A stretch of DNA of 64,000 nt from contig JAVTVX010000001.1 in the NCBI GenBank assembly GCA_033439265.1, forward strand, positions 13,658,608 to 13,722,607, read 5' to 3'. Below, in pieces: positions 1 to 13,900 of this stretch (position 1 is its first letter; every line of letters begins with the position of its first letter). A program made the position numbers and the translations under genes. The stretch comes from Dillenia suffruticosa. Its lineage: Eukaryota > Streptophyta > Magnoliopsida > Dilleniales > Dilleniaceae. Below the pieces are notes generated by a model. That model worked only from the letters and a program-made list of their open reading frames with translations. It was not told where the DNA came from and did no database searches.

Positions 1-755
1 TGTTATATGTATCTACCGCCTTTAGCAAGTTACAATTTTAATATTAAAAAAATTTCATATTAATGTTTTTAATATTACAAAAATCAATTCCTATTTTTGG
101 AGACATATTTTAACTAAAAAAAAAAGTAAAAAATCATTTTGCCTGAGAAACTTGATTTTATAAGTTTTATAATTAATTTGTTATACACATATATATCCTA
201 AACAATGACAATCTTGGGTCAAATCTTAACTTTTCTTTTTCTTTTTTCTTGATCGCTGGATTTGTTTCTTTTTTTTAATTCTTTAATTTCTTTTTTGATG
301 TCTAATTTAATATTATTTTATTTTAATTATTTAATTATTTTAATCAATTTATTATTATGTTATTATTTTCTATTTAAAATCCTTAATTTCAAATTTTATT
401 GATATTAATAAAAAATAATTCAATGATATCATTCAAATATATCGAAAAGGAAAAATTAATATGGAGTGAGGTAAGAACAGAAAAAAAAAAAACAGATTTT
501 TTAGAAATGACATTTAAGAAAATTTAAAAAATCAATTTAAATTTCATAAGATTAAAAATTTATCTTCATTGATACTCAAACTTAAGCTGAAAAATAAAAA
601 ATAAAAGCAAAATTAAAATCCCAAAAAATTTAAAAATTTCTTACTATATGAGCCCAGTGGATTGTCATTCAAAAGTTTTACAAAATTTTACAAAAAAAAA
701 AAAATTATTGACGAACACATAGAACTATGAAATTCTACTACTTAACAGAACATTG

Positions 756-805
756 TAGTTCTACTACTTCGCAGAACTATATAGTTCTGTTAAGTAGTAG
801 AACTA
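756..805. repeat. 50-bp near-perfect palindrome
   Basis: Outer arms TAGTTCTACTACTT and AAGTAGTAGAACTA are perfect 14-base complements. They enclose CAGAACTATATAGTTCTG, which is itself a perfect palindrome, with only a two-base mismatch step (CG/TT) on each side between the two. The whole could extrude as a long hairpin. Confidence 0.85.
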
Positions 806-1287
806 TAGCGGAATTTCATAGTTTTGTTATGTAACAGAACTATAGCAAAATTATAACAGAACTATAGCAAAATTTCATTATTCTGCTATTTAACAGACCT
901 ATGTAGTTCTGCTACATAGCAGAACTTTGAAGTTTTCCTACGTAACAGAACTTATATTTAAATATATACAAATATAAAATTAAAAAAATATTTTTCTTAT
1001 TTTAATATAATATATTTAATATTAAATAAATATCCAGATATTAAAACTAAATATCTAAATCTTTTTATTCTTATACAGTTTTAGATTACATAAAAATATT
1101 TATCAGTTTGTTTTAATTTATTGTTTAATATTTTTACATTTTATACTACAATTTAAATTTATATTCAGATCTTAAATATCTAAATATTAATATTTAAATA
1201 TTTCACGTTTGAAATTATTTTTAATACTAAAAAATATTTTAATATTTAAATTAATTTAGAAGAAATTATAGCTTCCATAATATCTAA

Positions 1288-1418
1288 CAAATTCTGTCCC
1301 GGCATCTGATTGCTCTTCTAAATTATGGAGGTGTCCCAAGAGAATATATTATGGATATTTGGAAAAAGATGCGTACAGTATCCATTCCAATAAACGTGCA
1401 ACTCTTAGAAGTAAGTTT
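1288..1418 (+). pseudogene. Fragment resembling a plant RNA-dependent RNA polymerase exon
   Basis: From 1288 the plus strand reads through residues including LIALLNYGGVPREYIMDI, then after a one-base frame shift near 1362 continues as EKDAYSIHSNKRATLR and runs into a GTAAGT-like donor. I recognise this as similar to a conserved stretch of plant RDR proteins of the RDR3/4/5 (gamma) clade, where a GGVP(R/E)E(Y/F)-type segment is followed by an NKRAALR-type end of exon. Only about 43 codons are present; no catalytic DxDGD segment was found nearby. The fragment is more GC-rich than its surroundings and is flanked on both sides by the AGTTCTGC palindromes, so it may have been captured by a transposon. 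Family assignment is from memory of the motif, without an alignment. Confidence 0.55.
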
Positions 1419-1419
1419 C

Positions 1420-1870
1420 TCTCTGTGATGCTATATTGACCTCACAATAGATAGATATTTTCTTTGTGTTTTACCTGAGAGATTCAGTTGTCACATTGAC
1501 TCTAGCTTTTGCTTTTGTTATATATGCCTGCATCCCTTTTTTAGAAAAAGAATAGAAATTGAGTCCACACTCCTATGTTGAGTTGTTTTTTGTAAATTCT
1601 TTCATAACTTGATGAGTTTTTCTTGAGAATGATGATTAATGTCTGCAACTCTTACTATTTCTGTACTTGATTCTTTGCCAAATTTTTTCTTATACCTTTG
1701 CCTTGTTTGGTTGGATTTTTCTATAGTTTCGTTAAGGTGTGGAGAGATGGACAATTTTAATATTGCTATAATGATTTTATCTTGAACACCTATACTCTCT
1801 ATGATGGATTCCATTTTCAATGTTCTCTTAAAAATGGTAGCCTTTTCCTCCAACCCAGAAACTTATGCTT
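1420..1870. other. Less AT-rich island next to the polymerase fragment
   Basis: This stretch is visibly richer in G and C than the flanking kilobases and may be intron or further exons of the same captured gene. An 83-codon open frame lies on the minus strand (1602-1853) but I recognise no family in it, and it has no supporting splice or start context. Confidence 0.3.
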
Positions 1871-2819
1871 GTACAGAACTACCAAATTATAGAGCTTGCC
1901 AAGGTATAGGATTACATGTGGATCTAATGCAGAACTACCAAAATACAGAACTGTAATTTTAGATTCTGTCAAAATTTCAAATATGAAAATATTAATATTT
2001 AAGTATTTCGTGTCTGAGATTACTTTTAACATTATAGTTGTAGTCATTTTATATGGTTCTGCATTGATAGTTCCGTACTATGTAGAACACTCTGCATAGT
2101 GCAGCACTGCTTGGTAGTTCTGCATAGCGTAGAACTTTATTGTTTTGCATGGCATAGATATACCGTAATTCTACAAAGCGCGAAACTACTTGGTGGTTCT
2201 ACATAAAGCAGAACTATCGATATTTTTATTAAAAATAAATCATTACGCTTAATATAAAAAATATTTGAAATTGATGACGTATAATAAGTTTACTATAATA
2301 TTATATTAATGCAAAAATTATAATTATGAAAATATTAAATGAAAAATATTTTAAGATATTTTTAAAACAAAACCAATTATAATAAAGATACGAAAAGATA
2401 TTATATAGATTCTTTTATTATATACAAAATATTTTTGCATATAACAAAAATACTATAGTATTATAATACGAATAAAATGATAATTTTATAATACTAAAAT
2501 ATAATATTTTGAAATTTAAGATTCCAAAATTTCTAAATATTAGTACTTAGATATTCTACTATTGAAACTATTTTAATGAATTGAATAGTATACCTTGCTT
2601 TATTATTTAATATTTTTACATTTTGTTTTTGCTCATTCCATGTGGTTCAAAGTTTGGTAGTTCTGCATAATACAGAACTATTTTGTGATTTTGCATAGTA
2701 CAGAACTACTAATATTTTTATTAAAAAAATATATAATTACCCAAAAATATAAAAAATATTTAAAATAAATGATATATCTCATTCCTTGTGATTTGAAGTT
2801 TGGTGGTTCTATATTTGAA

Positions 2820-3795
2820 ATCATTTAAATGTGATTTCTAAAAAATTTACACTATCACAACCCTAAACAAAATAAAGAAAAATATTTTCGGGTGTTTTAA
2901 AAATAATAATAATATTTTGAGAGATTAAAAAATAGCAGAATCATTAAGTTCTGTATAGCAGAACCATGTCGTTCTGCATAGCAGAACCATGTCGTTCTGC
3001 ATAGCAGAACCATGTCGTTCTGCATAGCAGAACCATGAGACTCTGCATAGCAGAATCATGTGGCTCTGCATAGCTGAATAATGTCGTTCTGCGTACCGCC
3101 TTGTTATTCAAATATTCAATTTTTTTAATATTAAAAATAATTTATTTAGATATTTGATATTTATTTAAATAAAATATAAAATTATAATATGAAATATGAA
3201 AATATTAAATGATGAACAAAACCAACATTATTAATATTTTTATTTAAATAAACGTATAAATATTTTTATTATTTAAAATTTATAAGAATAAAAATTAACA
3301 AATTAAATATATAATTTTTAATACAGAGCATGCACACCATGCACACTATAAGCTACCTTTTGTCACGCCTCCCTCTATATAGAAAGAAAGACCCCAAAAA
3401 TTAAAAAAAAATGAATATATAAGCACCCAAAAACAATTATGTCGTTTAGACATAACATTGCATAACATTACATAGATAATTTTTTTTCAGATATAATTTA
3501 TTTAATATCTAATTTATTTAATTTTAAATAAATATCTGCATATTTAAATTAAATATTTAAATTTTTTATTCTTATAAAATTTTAAATTGCATATTTATAT
3601 TTATAAGTTTTAGTTTTGTTTTATTTCTTAATATTTTTATATTTTATATTACGATTAACATTTTATTTGAAATTCCAATTTTAAAAACTTTTAATTAGAC
3701 AAAAATTAAAACTACTAGAGTAAAAATTTTAGATAAACAATAATTCTTTAAAAGATCAAAACTATAATTTAAAAACTCCATAGTTAACTATAGGT
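2820..3795. repeat. Diverged segmental repeat, copy 1
   Basis: This segment matches 4272-5155 over almost its whole length, with many substitutions and small indels. Shared landmarks include GTGATTTCTAAAAAATTTACA, the run TTTCGGG(T)G/ATTTTAAAAATAAT, and AGCTACCTTTTGTCA followed by CTCCCTCTATATAGA. Copy 1 additionally carries an expanded 23-bp tandem array. No coding potential is seen. Confidence 0.8.
2958..3090. repeat. 23-bp tandem repeat array
   Basis: The unit GCAGAACCATGTCGTTCTGCATA, or close variants, repeats head-to-tail every 23 bases for about five to six units; the first two start at 2958 and 2981. The first three units are nearly identical and later ones drift (ATGAGACTCTG, ATGTGGCTCTG). 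Each unit is an imperfect inverted repeat (GCAGAAC/GTTCTGC). Confidence 0.85.
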
Positions 3796-4271
3796 AAAAT
3801 TTATAAAATTAGATAACTTATATATAAATTGATCGAGACGAATTCATATATAATGCCTACCAAAAGAATATTTGATTTATTATATGAAATCTTTAAATAA
3901 CTAAATTATTTTTTGTATTTTTATACTTTACAAACCTTAAATTAAATATTAATATTTATGCATTTTTTAGACTTAAATTATTAAATATTATGATTTCAAA
4001 TTAATATTTATGTAATTTTTATTTCACACCAATATTAATGTTATATATGTTATGTCCATGTCTTTTTCATTTAAATTTAGAATGTTTAATATTAGATAAA
4101 TATTTAAATATTAGCTAACCTAAAAATGCAATCTATAAAAATTATAATTATAAAAATATCTACCATATTATGGTTTTTAATAATCTTTCACTTTTTTTGA
4201 AAAGATTTAATATTTATAAAAAAGAAAAACTATATTTATTTTATAGAAACAAATCGAATTTAAACTTTTTT

Positions 4272-5155
4272 AAATCATTTAGACGTGATTTCTAAAAAAT
4301 TTACACCATCACAACCATAAACAAAATAAAAATTATGTTTTCGGGTATTTTAAAAATAATAATAATATTTTGGAAGATTAAAAAGGTTTTGCTTTTTGGC
4401 GGGGAATAATAGCATAACCATGTCGTTCTGCGTATCAGAACCTTGTGGTTTTACGTACCACCTTATTATTCCAATATTCAATTTTTTATAATATTAAAAA
4501 TAATTTATTTGGATATTTGATATTTATTTAAATAAAATATGAAATTATAACATGAAATGTGAAAATATTAAATGATGAACTAAAACAATATTATTAATAT
4601 TTTTATTTAAATAGACTTATAAATATTTTTATCATTTGAAACTGTATAAAAATAAAAATTAACAGATTAAATATATAATTTTTAATATAAAGCACGTACA
4701 CCACGTACACTACAAGCTACCTTTTGTCATGTCTCCCTCTATATAGAAAAAAAGACCCAAAAAATAAAAAAAACAAGGAATATACAAACACTAAAAAACA
4801 ATTATGTCGTTTAAACATAACATTATATAGATAATTTTTTTTCGGATATGATTTTTTTAATATATAATTTATTTAATTTTAAATAAATATCTATATATTT
4901 AAATTAAATATTTAAATATTTTTATTCTTATAAAATTTTAAATTGCATATTCATATTTATAGGTTTTAGTTTTGGTTTATTTTTTAATATTTTTATATTT
5001 TATTCTACGATTAACATGTTATTTGAAACTCCAATTTTTAAAACTTTTAGTTAGACACAGACAAAAATTAAAACTATTAAAGTAAAAGTTTTAGATAGAT
5101 AAAGATTCTTTAAAAATTAAAACTCTAATTTAAAAACTCTATAGTTAAATAATAA
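4272..5155. repeat. Diverged segmental repeat, copy 2
   Basis: This is the second copy of the segment at 2820-3795, in direct orientation about 1.4 kb downstream. It keeps the AGCTACCTTTTGTCATGTCTC landmark near 4710 but has only a single degenerate GTTCTGC unit where copy 1 has the 23-bp array. No coding potential is seen. Confidence 0.8.
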
Positions 5156-5828
5156 TTTAGTTTTGGTTTATTATTTAATATTATCACATTTTGTTTCAAT
5201 TTAATATTTCAATCCAATATCAAATATCTAAATATACATATTCAAACATATCACATGTGGTTCTGAGAAACGTAGATCACCTTCTGGCTCTCCAAAATGC
5301 AGAATCACGTTGTGGGTCAGCGAAACACAGAATTTCGTTATCGTCCTGTACAGTGTAGAACTATTTTAAAAAATTAAAACCGATAAAAAAATAGGAAAAA
5401 AAAACATATTTAATTCTGTTTTAAACATTTTTTTGAGTTAACATATAACTTTTAATATGTAGCACACACACCATGCACACTATATTTTTAATATATACAT
5501 TTAAATCCAAATGTATTTAAATATACAACTTAAATCTAAATATGTTAAAATATAACATACTTTTTTTCTCATTCTAATGTATTTTTTTATTTTAATATAA
5601 TATATTTAATGTTAAATGAATATATTTAAAATATATTTCTCTGTCTTTTTTTATTTTTATTTTTTTGGTATTATAAAAAAAATTATATATATCACAAAAG
5701 TAAAATTAATATAAATTTTACTAAACTACACTGGACAACTCTCTTCATTTTGTAACCAAAATCAAAACTCTACACCGTGCATTGCGTGGTGTACACCTCC
5801 CGGTACTTATATGTATATGGTAAATGAG

Positions 5829-6009
5829 ACGTTGATATCGGCTTTGCATAATTACATTTGGAGGAAAACATTGACCCATCACACATTCATGAGATCTGAC
5901 GTGTTACAGACACACAAAAGTATCTGAGATTGATGCTGACGCTGCTCCAATGAATGAATTACGTGAGCAAATTACTTCAAATTTGATGAAAGCAATGAAA
6001 TTACAATAA
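5829..6009 (+). pseudogene. PIF/Harbinger-like transposase C-terminal remnant
   Basis: The plus strand reads TLISALHNYIWRK from 5829, then after a stop and a frame change reads EIDADAAPMNELREQITSNL and ends at TAA 6007-6009. An ALHN(Y/F)I-R segment followed by an acidic linker and a short (M)N-(L/V)R-xI-xxLM tail is the usual C-terminal layout of plant Harbinger/ALP1-like nuclease transposases. Upstream catalytic DDE segments were not found, so this is a decayed tail. Assignment rests on motif recognition only. Confidence 0.5.
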
Positions 6010-6327
6010 ACTATTTTTTAGGATTTGTTTAATTTATTTAAATTATTGTTATATAACTTTTTTAAATAGTTAAGAAGGGTCTTTTCTTATAAAGTCATGA
6101 ATGTTATATGAACTACTATTAATTAGATAATAGCAACGTGAAGAAAATTATTGTAAAAAATAAAATAGATATAACTAGCATATGCATATCATTTTTTGTC
6201 ATTTTATACATGAATATCAACTACCATTAATTAGATAATTGAATACTAATATTAATTACTAAAAACTATCGACCATTGACCATGGACCGTCAACCATCAA
6301 CCATTGGCCATTAGCAATTAGTTATTA

Positions 6328-8756
6328 CACTACAAAAAAACACGTTTTTAGTCATGGATTTTCACGATATAAAAAATTTATTACTATTTTACGATAAATT
6401 TAACGACGAAAAATAAGTCATGGCTATATTAACAATGGACACATTATTCGTAGCTAAATTTATCGCTAATTAGTGACAAAAATATTTTTGTGGCTAAATT
6501 CGTCGTTAATTGTTGACAAAATTTTTCATTACAAATTTTGTCTCTAATTAATGATAAATAAATTTTAGTAGCTAAATTTTACCACGAATATAGTTATCTG
6601 TAGCTAAATTTAGTGACAAAAAAAGCTCGTGACAAATTTCGTGACTAAATTTCACAACGAAAAAAGTTCGTGACAAATTCTGTCGCTCATTTGCTACAAA
6701 AATTTTTCGTCACTAAATTTGTCGCTAATTAGTCATAAAAAAATATTTGTCTCTAAATTTAGCAACGAACTCCAAAATTTTCGTTACTAAATTCATCGTT
6801 AATTAGTTACAAAAAATTATTCGTAACTAAATTCGTCGCTAATTTATTATCTATATTTCAAAATTTATGTATAATTGCATAACTAAATTTTTTCAATACT
6901 CGATTAGGAAATATTTTCAATCGTATCTCCCTTTTTAATCAATTTTGAATAATGAAATTGAATTAAAAATATAGTAAATATTATAATTCTCACTAAATTA
7001 AGAATTTTCAACAATAAATAATTCAATCAATCTGTAACAGACAATTTTAATAAGTCGCGATTATAGAGTTTACCATTTATATTTTTATCTTCTATATATG
7101 TTTGCTTCTCATATATAGTTCAATCGCCTTTGAAAATTCAGTTGTTCATTTTCATTCATTGTTGTCATCAACAAGGAAGATAATAGATGATACATCCATG
7201 TCTAACAATCCATCTCGTTTGACAAGTAGATCAAACATTAGTTTTTGAAAAATGACGATAATGATACGGATGGCAACTGATAGACGGCAATCCATTTATA
7301 AACTATTATATGGTTTCAAAAAAATAAAATAAAAATGAAAAAAAAATAATAAAATAAGAAAATAAAATATAAAATAAGAAAATAAAATATAAAATGCAAA
7401 TATATATTAAAAAAAGATTAAGTTAGCGACAGATTTAGTGACGAATTTATAAATCCGTCACTAAATTAGCGACGAATTAAGAAATCTGTTACTAATTTAG
7501 TGACGGATTTAAAATTTGTCGCTATTTTTGCGACGAATTTGAAATCTGTCGCTAAGTTAGCGATGAATTGAGAAATCCGTCGCTAATTTAGCGACAAATG
7601 TTCATATTCGTCGCTAAATTTAATCTTTTTAATTAAAATTTTATGCTTTTTTATTTTATTAATTTATATTAACAAATCATATTATTATTTTATAATATTT
7701 TAGTTTAACATTTTATATTATTATATTATATTTCATTTTTTTAAAAGAATAATATTATTTTAATCTTAAAAAATATAAAAACAAATCAATTTATTATGTT
7801 ATAATATTTTAAAATAGTATTTTATTTTATTTTTTTAATAATAATATTAATATATTTTTTAATTCATTTATTTTTTTTATTTTAAGTTAGCATTTTATTA
7901 TTTTTTATTTTATAAAAAATTATCATATTTATTATTTTTAATTAATATGTTATATTTTATTTTTATTTTTTCTTTTTAAAGAATCATATTATTTTGTTTT
8001 AAGTTAGCATTTTATTATTTTACAAAAAATTATTTTTTAAATTAATATGTTATATTTTATTTTTATTTTATAATATTAAAAATAATATTATTTTATTTTA
8101 AACTAAAATTTTATTATTTTATAACAAATTGCTATTTTAGATTATTTTATTATTATTAGAAAAATGTGATGGAAAGATAATAAGTAAAAAAATATATATA
8201 TAACAGAATCTAACATTTAGTTTGATGGTTATATGCTCTTAAAAGTTTACGCAAGTGCAAGAGTTCGAATCATGCTGAGGGCAAAGCGGGGGCATTTTCT
8301 AGGAATTAAGTGAGAGCGGGCGTGTGGGCAGGTGTGCTTGCAGGTGGGTGCTGGCGAGGGGGGCGGGCTCAGGTGCAAGCGAGAGCGCATTTTTTTTCCA
8401 TTGCTAAATTAGCGATGGATTTTAGCGATGAAAAATTATCCGTCGCTAAATTTAGCGACAAATTTTAGATTTTCGTCTTTAAATTTAGCAACGAATTTTT
8501 TTTCGTTACTAATTTAGCAATGAATTTTTTTCCGTTGCTAATTTAGTGACGGATAATTTTTCTTCGCTAAATTTTGCGACGGATTTTAACAATGAAAAAT
8601 TATCTATTCCTAAATTTAGCGATAGATTTTAGATTTTCGTCACTAAATTTATGAACGGATTTCTAATTTCCATCGCTAAATTTTTGCGACGTGTTATTAG
8701 CGACGAAAAATTTTTCGTCGCTAAATTTGTAGTTAAAAACGTATTTTTTTGTAGTA
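6328..8756. mobile_element. Non-autonomous CACTA (En/Spm-like) transposon
   Basis: The left end begins CACTACAAAAAAACACG and the right end is the near-perfect complement, ending CGTATTTTTTTGTAGTA. The terminal inverted repeat runs about 25 bases with two or three mismatches, one of them the outermost base. A 3-bp target duplication TTA flanks it (6325-6327 and 8757-8759), as expected for CACTA elements. Inside the ends are dense subterminal repeats of GTCGCTAAATT/AATTTAGCGAC in both orientations (about 6345-6860, 7420-7620, 8395-8740), the class of motif bound by TNPA-type proteins. The centre is plain AT-rich DNA with no transposase ORF, so the element would depend on proteins from elsewhere. 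Confidence 0.88.
8205..8395 (+). other. GC-rich insert with a tRNA-like head inside the CACTA element
   Basis: Within the AT-rich element lies a sharply GC-rich patch (8275-8385) rich in GGGCGGGC and GCAGGTG. It is preceded by a segment containing GAGTTCGAATC at about 8269, which matches an RNA polymerase III B box, and an A-box-like TAGTTTGATGGTTAT some 50 bases earlier. This could be a tRNA-derived SINE head or captured host DNA. It does not fold into an obvious complete tRNA by eye, so no tRNA gene is called. Confidence 0.4.
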
Positions 8757-8789
8757 TTAGCTCTTAGCTTTTGTTAAATCAAGCATGTC

Positions 8790-9600
8790 CTAAACAATTT
8801 CTTTCTCAAAACTTTGATTAAAAAAATTTAGATAAAGTCTCATATGTCATTGACATTGAGATTGAGATTTATAGAGATAGGGCTCAACAACATTAGGACT
8901 ATCTCAAAGGGCCAAGATTTAAGATGGCAAATCACAAATTTGCAATAACGCGTATTATTAAAGCATCAAGTTTTGTCAAGGTCAATGTCTATAGAATGCA
9001 AGAAAAAAAAAAAGAGCAAATAAAAGATATCACATATGCATATGTTGTATGTAGTTTGATGTATGCACAAGTTTGCACAAAACCTGATTTGGGATTTTCG
9101 GTGAGAGTGTTTGGGAGGTACCAAGGCAATCCATGAATAGAGCACTTGAAAGCTACTAAAAAGGTTATAAGGTACCTTGATGGAACGAAGGATTGCACAT
9201 TGAAAGTTTGTTCGAGGTACATGAAAGTTACTTCCCGATACAAAGTTATTTTGGAGGTGGTTGGTTATCCAAATTTGAATTTTGCTAGATATGTGGACAT
9301 AGAAAGGTTATTTAGGGATAAATCTTTCTTCTTGCCCGAATGGTAGTATTTTGGAGAAGTACTAAGTGAACTATTTTAGCATTGTCTACGATAAATATAG
9401 AATTCATTGCATGCTATGAAGCAATGATACATGCAGTTTGGCTGAAATTTTTCATTTCTTACCTTAAAGTTATTGGTTCCATTTCAAGGTCAGTGAGGAT
9501 TTTTTTTTTTTTTTTTGATAATTTGGTTGCTGGTTTTTATAAGAACCAATGAATTTTTTTTTTCAAAATATATATTTTTTTTATTTTGATTGAAGAGGAG
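8790..9600 (+). pseudogene. Decayed Ty1/copia pol fragment (reverse transcriptase to RNase H)
   Basis: Reading frames on the plus strand give, in the family order, SYVIDIEI with YRDRAQ (8838 on), YAYVVCSLMYAQVCTKPDL (9037 on), FGRYQGNP, then KATKKVIRYLDGTKD (9149 on) and a frame change. These match the second half of copia reverse transcriptase and the start of its RNase H. Several stops and shifts interrupt it, including one after QGNP, and no LTRs were recognised. It begins just downstream of the CACTA element. A weak continuation resembling the RNase H end is visible up to about 9540. It is non-functional. Confidence 0.85.
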
Positions 9601-10977: not shown

Positions 10978-13900
10978 ATGGACGCAGCGTCGCAGCTGTT
11001 CTACTGCGGAATCGAGCCTCTTCGACGGACCAAAACTCCTCTGCATCCTCATAGAGTTATCAACAGTCGCAATCTCGGAGCAAGAACTAGGGTTCGTAAA
11101 CCGGGCGGCGTCGTTTTCGCTGTAGCAACAGAGCCCAAACCGACCGAGAAAAGAGAGGGAGCTTCAAGACCACCTGAGGCCGTTAATGGATCCTCAAGAC
11201 TTTCTTCTTCCTCCTCCTCCTCCTCCTCCTCTTCTTCTTCTTCTTCTTCTTTTTCTTCGAATTCCAATTCCGTTAATGGCGTTTCTACGGTAATTAATTT
11301 GATTTCGATCGGTGAAATTTTCATTTCTCTCATTTATTTAGGGCTTTCGATTAAATAATTGCATTTCAAAGTGTATTGAAAAATAAACGGACGAAAATGT
11401 CAATAACATGAATAAGCACAAAGTAGTCACTTATCTGATTTTATTCTACATATTTAGCGTTAGGGTTACCATGGACTCAAAAAAAAAAAAAAAATTAGAG
11501 ATTTTGATAATTAATAGCTTGCAATGACATTTATAAGACGTTCTTGAAATTTGTTTTCATTTTTTTTATTTAGATAGGGGAAAAAAAAAACTGTATTAGA
11601 TGTAAAGAAGAATATACTACAATTCTAAAGATGAGAAATCCTAAAAGTGAATACTAATGAAGGACTGCTCTCAAATCCTTCTTCAACTCCTCTAGAATAT
11701 AACCTTTGTAAAACTCTGAAGCATGGCCTCTCGAAGAAGCATAATACACAAGTTTGTCCCAAATTATAGGAACCAATAGGTTAATTTATAAAGATTTTAG
11801 AATTCCACTAGCCACTTTGAAAATTCAGTAACAAGCTGACAAATTTTGACTTAATTTTTGCTCTATTTTTTTTTCCTTAATCCTTAAAATCCAGAAGTTT
11901 TTAGAGGTATTATTCAACATTTAAGACAGTTATCACTTTATTGTTTGTTGATGCCTTTGAATTAAGTGATTGATGGTTTGATTTTGGAAAATGCAGAGAA
12001 TGAAGGATGTCTCACAGGAGATTAAGAGGGTGAGAGCACAAATGGAGGAAAATGAACAACTGGCAATACTTATGAGAGGTCTTCGAGGGCAGAACTTGAG
12101 AGACTCTCAGTTTGCTGATGATAATATTAAGCTTCGCTTAGTGGAGGTATACTTGGGCTAAATATTGCATTTGGCTTAACATATTTTATTGCATCTGAAT
12201 GTCTTTTCTATGTATTTCATCTTTAAGGACTTAGCTGTCTAAGTTCTTATGATGTTCAATTACTAATTGCTTGTTAATTAGTAATTTTACAATTTAAAGT
12301 TGTAGTTGTTGTTTTTGGGCTTTTTTTTTATTGTGTTCCTAAACTGTGGATGAAGAGAACCAGAATTTGTTCAAGCAGTAGGTGACCACTTCTCCATTAA
12401 GTTAATGACTAAGCATAGGGTACTCAATGCAACTAAGCCTTATTCCCAACTGTTGTTGCATAGTTCATTGAAAAATTCCAATTTAGCTTTTGTTAGCTTT
12501 GGATTTTTTCAAGATTTAAACTCGTTGACTTTTGGGGATTCTATCTAGAGTGAAACATTTGTGAACCAGCACCATGTGCCAGATCATCTTTGCTGAACCT
12601 GATGATTATTAGTAAATTATGATTTTTAGCTTTGATTTGAATGGTTTCTCTTTCTACACCATTAAAAATATGAAGATGTTGGGAAGTTGATATGAGTCTT
12701 GGTATAGGATTTAGTCAATGGGTACTTTGCAGGGAATTTCTCTCTTCCTTTATTAGAGTTTTCCCTCTCTTAGACTCTAGGGTTGACGGCTGGGAATTTG
12801 TTCACTAACAAGTTTCCTACCACTTTTTTTTTTTTTAAATGAGAATTAAACTGATCTCTTTATTGATTATATTTCCTTTAAATAGGAAAAATTAGAATTT
12901 TCAATATAATAGATTTTCTACTTAAAAACAAACTACTAAAATCATTGCTAACATGAAGAATTTCGAAACTAAGGTGACAACTATTTTTAAAAAGATAATT
13001 ATCAACTAAAATAAGAAATTACTATTTTTCTAAAATATTTTCTTTTTACTGGTTTCCCAATGTTCTCGTAGAAGATCTCTTTCCAATGATATGCATTTTC
13101 TAAAATACTTCTTTCCAATGATATGCCTTGTACGTATCATTACTCCTCTCGTGGACAAAAAGCTTGTCCTCAAGCTCGAATTCAGCGTAAGCTTTCTAAC
13201 GATCCTGGGCGGCCTTCATCCGATTACGGATGATTCTTACTTTCTCTTTAGTTTTTTCCACTATCTCAACATTGCTAAGTCGCCTCTCACCTACCTCATC
13301 CCAACACAACGGAGTACGGCATTTCCTTCCATACGGAGGCATCCCAATACTGGCTTGATAGCTATTATTATATGCAAACTCTACCAACGGGAGATGCCGA
13401 TCCCAACTATCCCGAAAGTCCATAACACATGCTCTCAACATGTCCTCTACCATCTGGATGGTTCTCTTTGACTGACCATCGGTCTGGGGTGGTATGTGTG
13501 CTGAAACTCAGTCTAGTGCCCAATGCTTCCTGTAGACCATTCTGCAGAGTTTTCCATGACATTTGGCTTTGATACCTTATTGATATGCGCCCTAATACAA
13601 GATCTAGTCTATGGATACTGTGCAAAGAATTTCTTTCTTTCCTTGCTAGAGTTTTCCTTCTCTTAGACCTTAGATTTGATGGTTGGGAACTTGTTCCCTA
13701 ACAAGTTTCATTCTAATCTTCTTTTATGAGAATTAAACTTACCTCTTGATTGATGATACTCACTTTAAATAGTGAAAAACTAGGATTTACAATATAATAG
13801 AGTTTCTACTAAAAACAAATTTCTAAATCATTCATAATAAGAAGAATTTCAAAACTAACGTAACTACTATTTTTTAAAAAATAGCTATCAACTAAAGTAA

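Follow-up and report, generated by a model that had tools for sequence, protein, structure and literature searches.

The DNA analysed here (the window) is a stretch of 64,000 nucleotides from Dillenia suffruticosa (assembly GCA_033439265.1, contig JAVTVX010000001.1), corresponding to C1:13658608-13722607 (the genome comprises 596 Mb in 37 contigs). Its left part carries a field of short palindromes formed by a single octamer, which an initial annotation placed at 700-5360 and described as of unknown origin. We are confident that this field comes from an old, rearranged member of a large family of Helitrons (rolling-circle transposons), and that it makes up the non-coding interior and 3' portion of that copy. 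The observations behind this assignment are an end shared between copies with different flanks, palindromes on the element side of that end, a far-end marker upstream, and closely alike copies. The features of the field and its boundary are listed below in window coordinates; the palindrome patches have no assigned strand.

721-952, no strand: palindrome patch 1, AGTTCTGC-6 bp-GCAGAACT units, mostly with a 26-bp period (22-bp palindrome plus 4).
1288-1860, plus strand: probable captured fragment of a host RNA-dependent RNA polymerase gene, comprising two exon pieces (~1288-1410 and 1735-1850) and an intron, broken by a stop.
2055-2215, no strand: palindrome patch 2, loops mostly of 5 bp, steps of 25-33 bp.
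2642-2709, no strand: palindrome patch 3, 5-bp loops and a 28-bp step; repeats patch 2 (2165-2277 resembles 2657-2772).
2814-3790, plus strand: block A, duplicated as block B; contains the array at 2932-3092.
4268-5151, plus strand: block B, which repeats block A but has a shorter array (4409-4457).
5254-5362, no strand: decayed palindrome patch, 5-bp loops and steps of 27-28 bp.
5771-5793, plus strand: Helitron 3'-terminal hairpin, a 10-bp stem with two G-T pairs and a 3-base loop; genome match C1:13664380-13664404.
5800-5803, plus strand: 3' end of the element, CCGG where most other copies read CTAG; 5804 is the following T.

The exact octamer occurs nine times in the window, a number reached in none of 100 window shuffles, and seven of these sites fall within 700-5360. 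When one mismatch is allowed, the same interval contains 30 sites and nine close convergent pairs, against means of 1.4 (maximum 7) and 0.006, respectively, in 1000 dinucleotide shuffles. The dozens of inverted pairs reported earlier are thus true for degenerate copies only; the enrichment is far above chance, but the observation was overstated in count. The majority of sites pair as palindromes of 19-22 bp, AGTTCTGC-(3, 5 or 6 bp)-GCAGAACT, which are arranged in tandem with a period of mostly 23 to ~28 bp; the array in block A has a 23-bp period and 3-bp loops (units at 2947-3080). Within patches 1 and 3 and the decayed patch, the paired units occupy 731-952, 2659-2707 and 5259-5362, respectively. 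Sites are patchy (~721-952, 1873-2215, 2642-2709, 2932-3092, 4409-4457 and 5254-5362), and the DNA between patches is AT-rich, with repeated modules, some of them inverted. At a threshold of at most five mismatches over 16 bases, 31 non-overlapping palindrome units were found in window 1-6300, including three isolated weak matches (2431, 3742 and 5835). From 9001 on (55 kb) the same threshold gave 81 raw matches, only three of them with three mismatches or fewer. The octamers at 12089 and 40246 were rejected as members of the field, being isolated where 1.24 are expected in the window.

The duplication noted earlier inside the field was confirmed as blocks A and B, which show a piecewise identity of 72-94% with the minimum across the array. 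They were rejected as long terminal repeats, as no TG/CA ends and no primer site were seen by eye. An Rfam search of the window returned nothing at the gathering threshold, an IMG/VR scan with a 17-base palindrome gave no match, and an exact pattern with a 1-base spacer has no match in the genome.

The field ends on the right at window position 5803, and the hairpin ends 10 bases before this point. Window 5695-5800 aligns with the left edge of a second domain on the same contig (D1, ~C1:13548600-13562600), which lies in the opposite orientation, and the two sequences then diverge. In D1 the end consists of the hairpin TACACCGCGC-AGC-GCGCGGTGTA, followed by CACCTC (6 bases), CTAG and T; the window's version is decayed. 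Searched genome-wide as an exact pattern, the hairpin has 72 matches (control 0), 30 of which were fetched for comparison of ends and flanks. In 28 of the 30, TCCTAG and then T directly follow the hairpin. In one further copy (L036) TCCTAG and T come after a duplicated half hairpin, and the window copy (L024) reads TCCCGG, then T. The base after the element end is thus T in all 30 copies, while the flanks differ by eye. Folded alone, the hairpin of copy L021 reached -12.3 kcal/mol, and none of 200 shuffles was as good. Its distance of 10 nt from the end falls in the range of ~10-15 nt expected for the short GC-rich hairpin of a Helitron. A hairpin followed by CTAG and T is the structure given for Helitron 3' ends in two accounts of these elements (PMC6591975; PMC4778049). 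Since the same combination recurs at many sites with different flanks, we read the boundary of the field as a Helitron 3' end. The suggestion that the field belongs to a DNA transposon is therefore supported by ends compared between multiple copies, but not the idea of an undescribed kind of transposon: the end is of a known kind, and not that of a new terminal-repeat element.

The octamers are tied to the element side of these ends. Their density is 5.24 per kb upstream of the ends (241 in 45,960 bases) and 0.38 per kb downstream (17 in 45,000), a 14-fold difference between sequences that are not independent on the upstream side, where they come from related copies. Perfect palindromes number 391 in the genome (control 0). 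They are clustered rather than evenly spread: of the first 50 listed, 41 have another within 25 kb, compared to a genome mean spacing of 1.5 Mb. For 34 of the same 50, an exact terminal hairpin is no more than 30 kb away, and in every such case the palindrome is on the 5' side of the hairpin. One cluster, at C1:11198333-11213498, holds 28 perfect palindromes in 15 kb with repeating steps of ~1.1-1.3 kb; it lies upstream of hairpin L022 (C1:11220875) and is a strongly amplified copy.

A marker for the far end of the element was taken from near the right edge of D1. It has 205 genome matches with at most two mismatches (control 0), of which 100, all exact, were listed. The listed markers reach C19:9.63 Mb, so the comparison with hairpins covered 44 of the 72. 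For 31 of these 44, the 45 kb upstream contain a listed marker on the same strand; for none does a listed marker lie on the wrong side or strand. The distance from marker to hairpin was 13.2-14.1 kb in 20 of the 31, 30-38 kb in five, and took other values between 7 and 27 kb in six; among the 20, C15:24339851 has an additional marker at 10.5 kb, and C8:5147173 has two at 15.6-15.9 kb. The sequence ~0.5 kb past the marker in D1 has no second genome match with at most two mismatches and so looks like host flank, which brackets the 5' end to ~0.5 kb, as read in D1 only. Position 13562562 was rejected as this 5' end because the sequence there is single-copy in the genome. A typical copy would be ~13-14 kb long if the marker lies as near the 5' end elsewhere as it does in D1. 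Some copies contain several markers: at C11:17510260-17516364, five markers at exact 1,520-bp steps precede one 3' end 32-38 kb away, and in some others markers are repeated at 2.5-2.8 kb.

Within one subfamily, sixteen copies selected for their likeness show a median difference of 0.69% over the last 1,450 bases (range 0 to 1.2%); L022, L042 and L045 of the same group, at 95-97% to the others, were omitted. Rare variants among the sixteen are mostly G>A and C>T (21/35). The window copy belongs to another subfamily, together with the two relatives of its end (L036 and L046, 95-96% over ~1.4-1.5 kb). The family thus exists in many copies, some of them very recent.

The field is the right end of a larger AT-rich domain (D2, ~C1:13640600-13664410) and continues past the left window edge for ~18 kb, so that it is not confined to 700-5360 as first reported. 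A third, weaker domain lies at 13616-13633 kb on C1. Outside the three domains, over 200 kb upstream, octamers with at most one mismatch mostly number 0-4 per 2 kb, with one bin of 6. Blocks common to D1 and D2 reach 96% over 2.1 kb, and the best ones are oppositely oriented. Thus, window 2804-4943 matches C1:13552675-13554771 in D1 at 96% identity, inverted. Window 493-1700, which includes patch 1, is 89% identical to the L021 copy (C1:958321-959520) and also aligns, inverted, to C1:13549439-13550640 in D1. D1 and the L021 copy are 95.5% identical over 6,958 bp, up to the element end, and D1 contains a second, truncated copy of the end region (13551976-13552155). The suggestion of active rearrangement agrees with these blocks, which are common to other copies but reordered.

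The polymerase-gene fragment reported earlier inside the field is a probable captured piece of an RNA-dependent RNA polymerase gene, with Pfam support too weak for proof. The only Pfam match at 1288-1860 is to RdRP (PF05183), below the family cut-off. The first piece scored E 0.086 in the window and 0.049 in L021, the two pieces joined gave 0.013 as the best value, and the second exon piece alone had no Pfam match; the exon and intron bounds are our own reading of the translation. Of the 30 fetched 3'-end loci, 20 carry a related 418-bp stretch in their last 1.5 kb. The window's end locus is among the ten without it because its piece sits further upstream. A broken Rep/helicase gene lies on the minus strand between two motif-rich stretches at C1:13634581-13640751 (L019 and L020). 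Two of seven frames searched there matched PF14214 (Helitron_like_N, 1.4e-30) and PF05970 (PIF1, 4.2e-32), and the gene may represent an autonomous relative.

Several findings weigh against the assignment of the field to this Helitron family. The window's own hairpin folds at only -6.3 kcal/mol, no better than chance (26/200 shuffles as good), and the last four bases of the copy are CCGG, not CTRR. Thirteen of the 44 hairpins compared, including that of the window (C1:13664380), have no listed (exact) marker within 45 kb upstream. Neither a 5'-TC end nor an A in front of it was found, and a search of 264 kb for 5' signatures like those of plant Helitrons was uninformative. For 16 of the 50 palindromes listed first, no exact hairpin lies within 30 kb; these may belong to decayed copies. 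The view that all copies form one repeat family holds largely, for the 34 near an exact Helitron end, but not wholly. The Rep/helicase remnants (C1:13636-13639 kb), at most candidate members of the family, are opposite in strand to the window's element. Finally, the block order in D2 is unlike that of the L021 copy, which argues for a chimera or nested insertions, and we regard the window copy as an old chimera or nest.

If the field is part of a Helitron, the element would be copied by a Rep/helicase through a rolling circle begun at the 5' end and terminated by the 3' hairpin. For Helraiser, the hairpin is reported as a terminator of rolling-circle copying in the account cited (PMC4778049). 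Within the element, palindrome arrays could expand and shrink by slippage or unequal exchange during copying, events that hairpin-forming tandem units would favour. Repeated re-initiation could produce tandem 5' parts and perhaps direct duplications too, and the polymerase gene piece would have been captured at the DNA level, intron included, and then multiplied with the element. On this view the arrays would chiefly be a satellite carried along by the element, with a role in cis being possible, and the palindromes may be simple by-products of replication.

Two accounts give the palindromes a role within the Helitron. We consider it unlikely that they are selected as sites for an element-encoded protein, a transposase accessory or anti-silencing factor, in the manner of VANC and its VANDAL elements, which are not Helitrons. 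The half-site does recur though loop length and period vary between patches and domains, but units were selected by similarity to the consensus, so that its retention is partly built in, and related copies share arrays by descent. In the portion of the VANC study cited, motifs likewise sit in tandem repeats of non-coding transposon regions, but those of VANC21 are arrayed in one orientation and the octamers here are palindromic (PMC5735166). No binding protein was identified among frames of at least 80 codons of two domains, which were viewed by eye with no VANC search run.

About equally doubtful is a function of the palindromes as hairpins, either in RNA feeding small RNAs or in single strands that pause or end rolling-circle copying internally. 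As single strands, two patches are predicted to fold much more stably than shuffled sequence (2947-3092, z -6.0; 721-860, z -8.6; 0/200 shuffles as good in each), and Helitron palindromes have been discussed as promoting such events in a text on these elements (PMC12628747). Good folding is expected of any palindrome array, though, and no internal 3' end linked to an array palindrome was demonstrated. The halves also show little compensatory change. For this comparison, 185 distinct half-pairs were taken from 251 units; unit counts depend on the threshold and were 97 in 14 kb (D1), 110 in 24 kb (D2) and 44 in 17 kb (Dm), compared with control stretches of 84 kb and 52 kb that gave 77 and 59 units, respectively. 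Compensated changes numbered 21 versus 17.2 expected at pair 1 and 9 versus 3.8 at pair 2, with the other six pairs about at expectation. The halves thus change mostly independently, with a small excess at pair 2. This lends little support to a maintained hairpin and is easier to reconcile with a site read as sequence than with a hairpin that is required. Substitutions at G and C within the octamer are most often C>T and G>A, also at the CAG/CTG (CHG) positions, and at the outer A/T pair this is reversed, with A>G and T>C the commonest; the former fits methylated, silenced DNA. Less likely again is the more general proposal that the arrays are a functional platform in cis, serving a DNA-binding protein, an anti-silencing factor or the control of the rolling circle, kept in a recently active family while loops and periods turn over.

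Readings outside Helitrons are very improbable. A subterminal repeat region of a CACTA or other terminal-inverted-repeat element would agree with the 10-20 bp direct and inverted units described for CACTA subterminal repeats in the source cited (PMC8978399) and with the CACTA-like element with subterminal repeats that adjoins the field at 6328-8756. Position 5803, however, marks an end of Helitron type with 72 matches, and the neighbour differs in motif and has its own ends, with its TTA duplication lying outside the field. Of the CACT[AG][CG] sites on the plus strand of window 1-9000 (2105, 4708, 5729 and 6328) by eye only 6328 has an inverse end, and the element so delimited does not include the field. 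A local satellite or ancient host repeat, equally improbable, would account for the tandem periods and the ~1.1-1.3 kb steps at C1:11198333-11213498, but not for copies that are scattered through the genome and share their end but not their flanks, and that cluster itself sits upstream of hairpin L022 (C1:11220875).

As a Helitron family, the elements combine features of several known systems. Tandem Helitrons of plants, in which a single 3' end follows several 5' ends, were reportedly described by Xiong et al. in 2016. According to the sources as cited, canonical plant Helitrons share the CTAG 3' end, a GC-rich hairpin just upstream, the T after the insertion and gene-fragment capture (probable here), but the family described here is large (typically 13-14 kb, in some copies at least 30 kb from marker to hairpin) and full of octamer palindrome arrays (PMC6591975). 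Tandem plant Helitrons likewise have several 5' parts before one 3' end, whereas the present family carries palindromic arrays too; internal arrays and palindromes in Helitrons are already known, and Helitrons and Helentrons with central satellite-like arrays show tandem arrays of varying length and orientation and shuffled copies, but here one octamer forms several palindromic patches whose loops differ (all in PMC12628747). VANDAL and VANC arrays also multiply a short motif in tandem in non-coding transposon DNA, but in one orientation and with binding shown (PMC5735166). Among the literature matches listed, judged by title and the start of the abstract, no published description of the octamer or the family was recognised, and listed occurrences of the octamer text looked, by title, like primers or unrelated sequence. 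The 25-base terminal signature provides a handle on a large, partly young Helitron family with 72 exact ends. Copies that are ~1% or less apart at their ends, and that vary in length and in 5' duplication, form a natural series for the growth of an internal satellite, and are suited to asking whether palindromes inside rolling-circle transposons do anything.

Three features lie in the window just beyond the Helitron end. A decayed coding piece at 5811-6006 (ALHNYI, ELREQITSNLM), in the flank directly past the end, had no Pfam match and presumably resembles the C-terminus of PIF/Harbinger transposases. The fragment at 8897-9343, also without a Pfam match, we take by eye to resemble a copia polyprotein. 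Between them, 6328-8756 is a non-autonomous CACTA-like element with the end CACTACAAAAAAA, the inverse end GTAGTA, TTA on both sides and subterminal repeats of the TAGCGACGAAA type.

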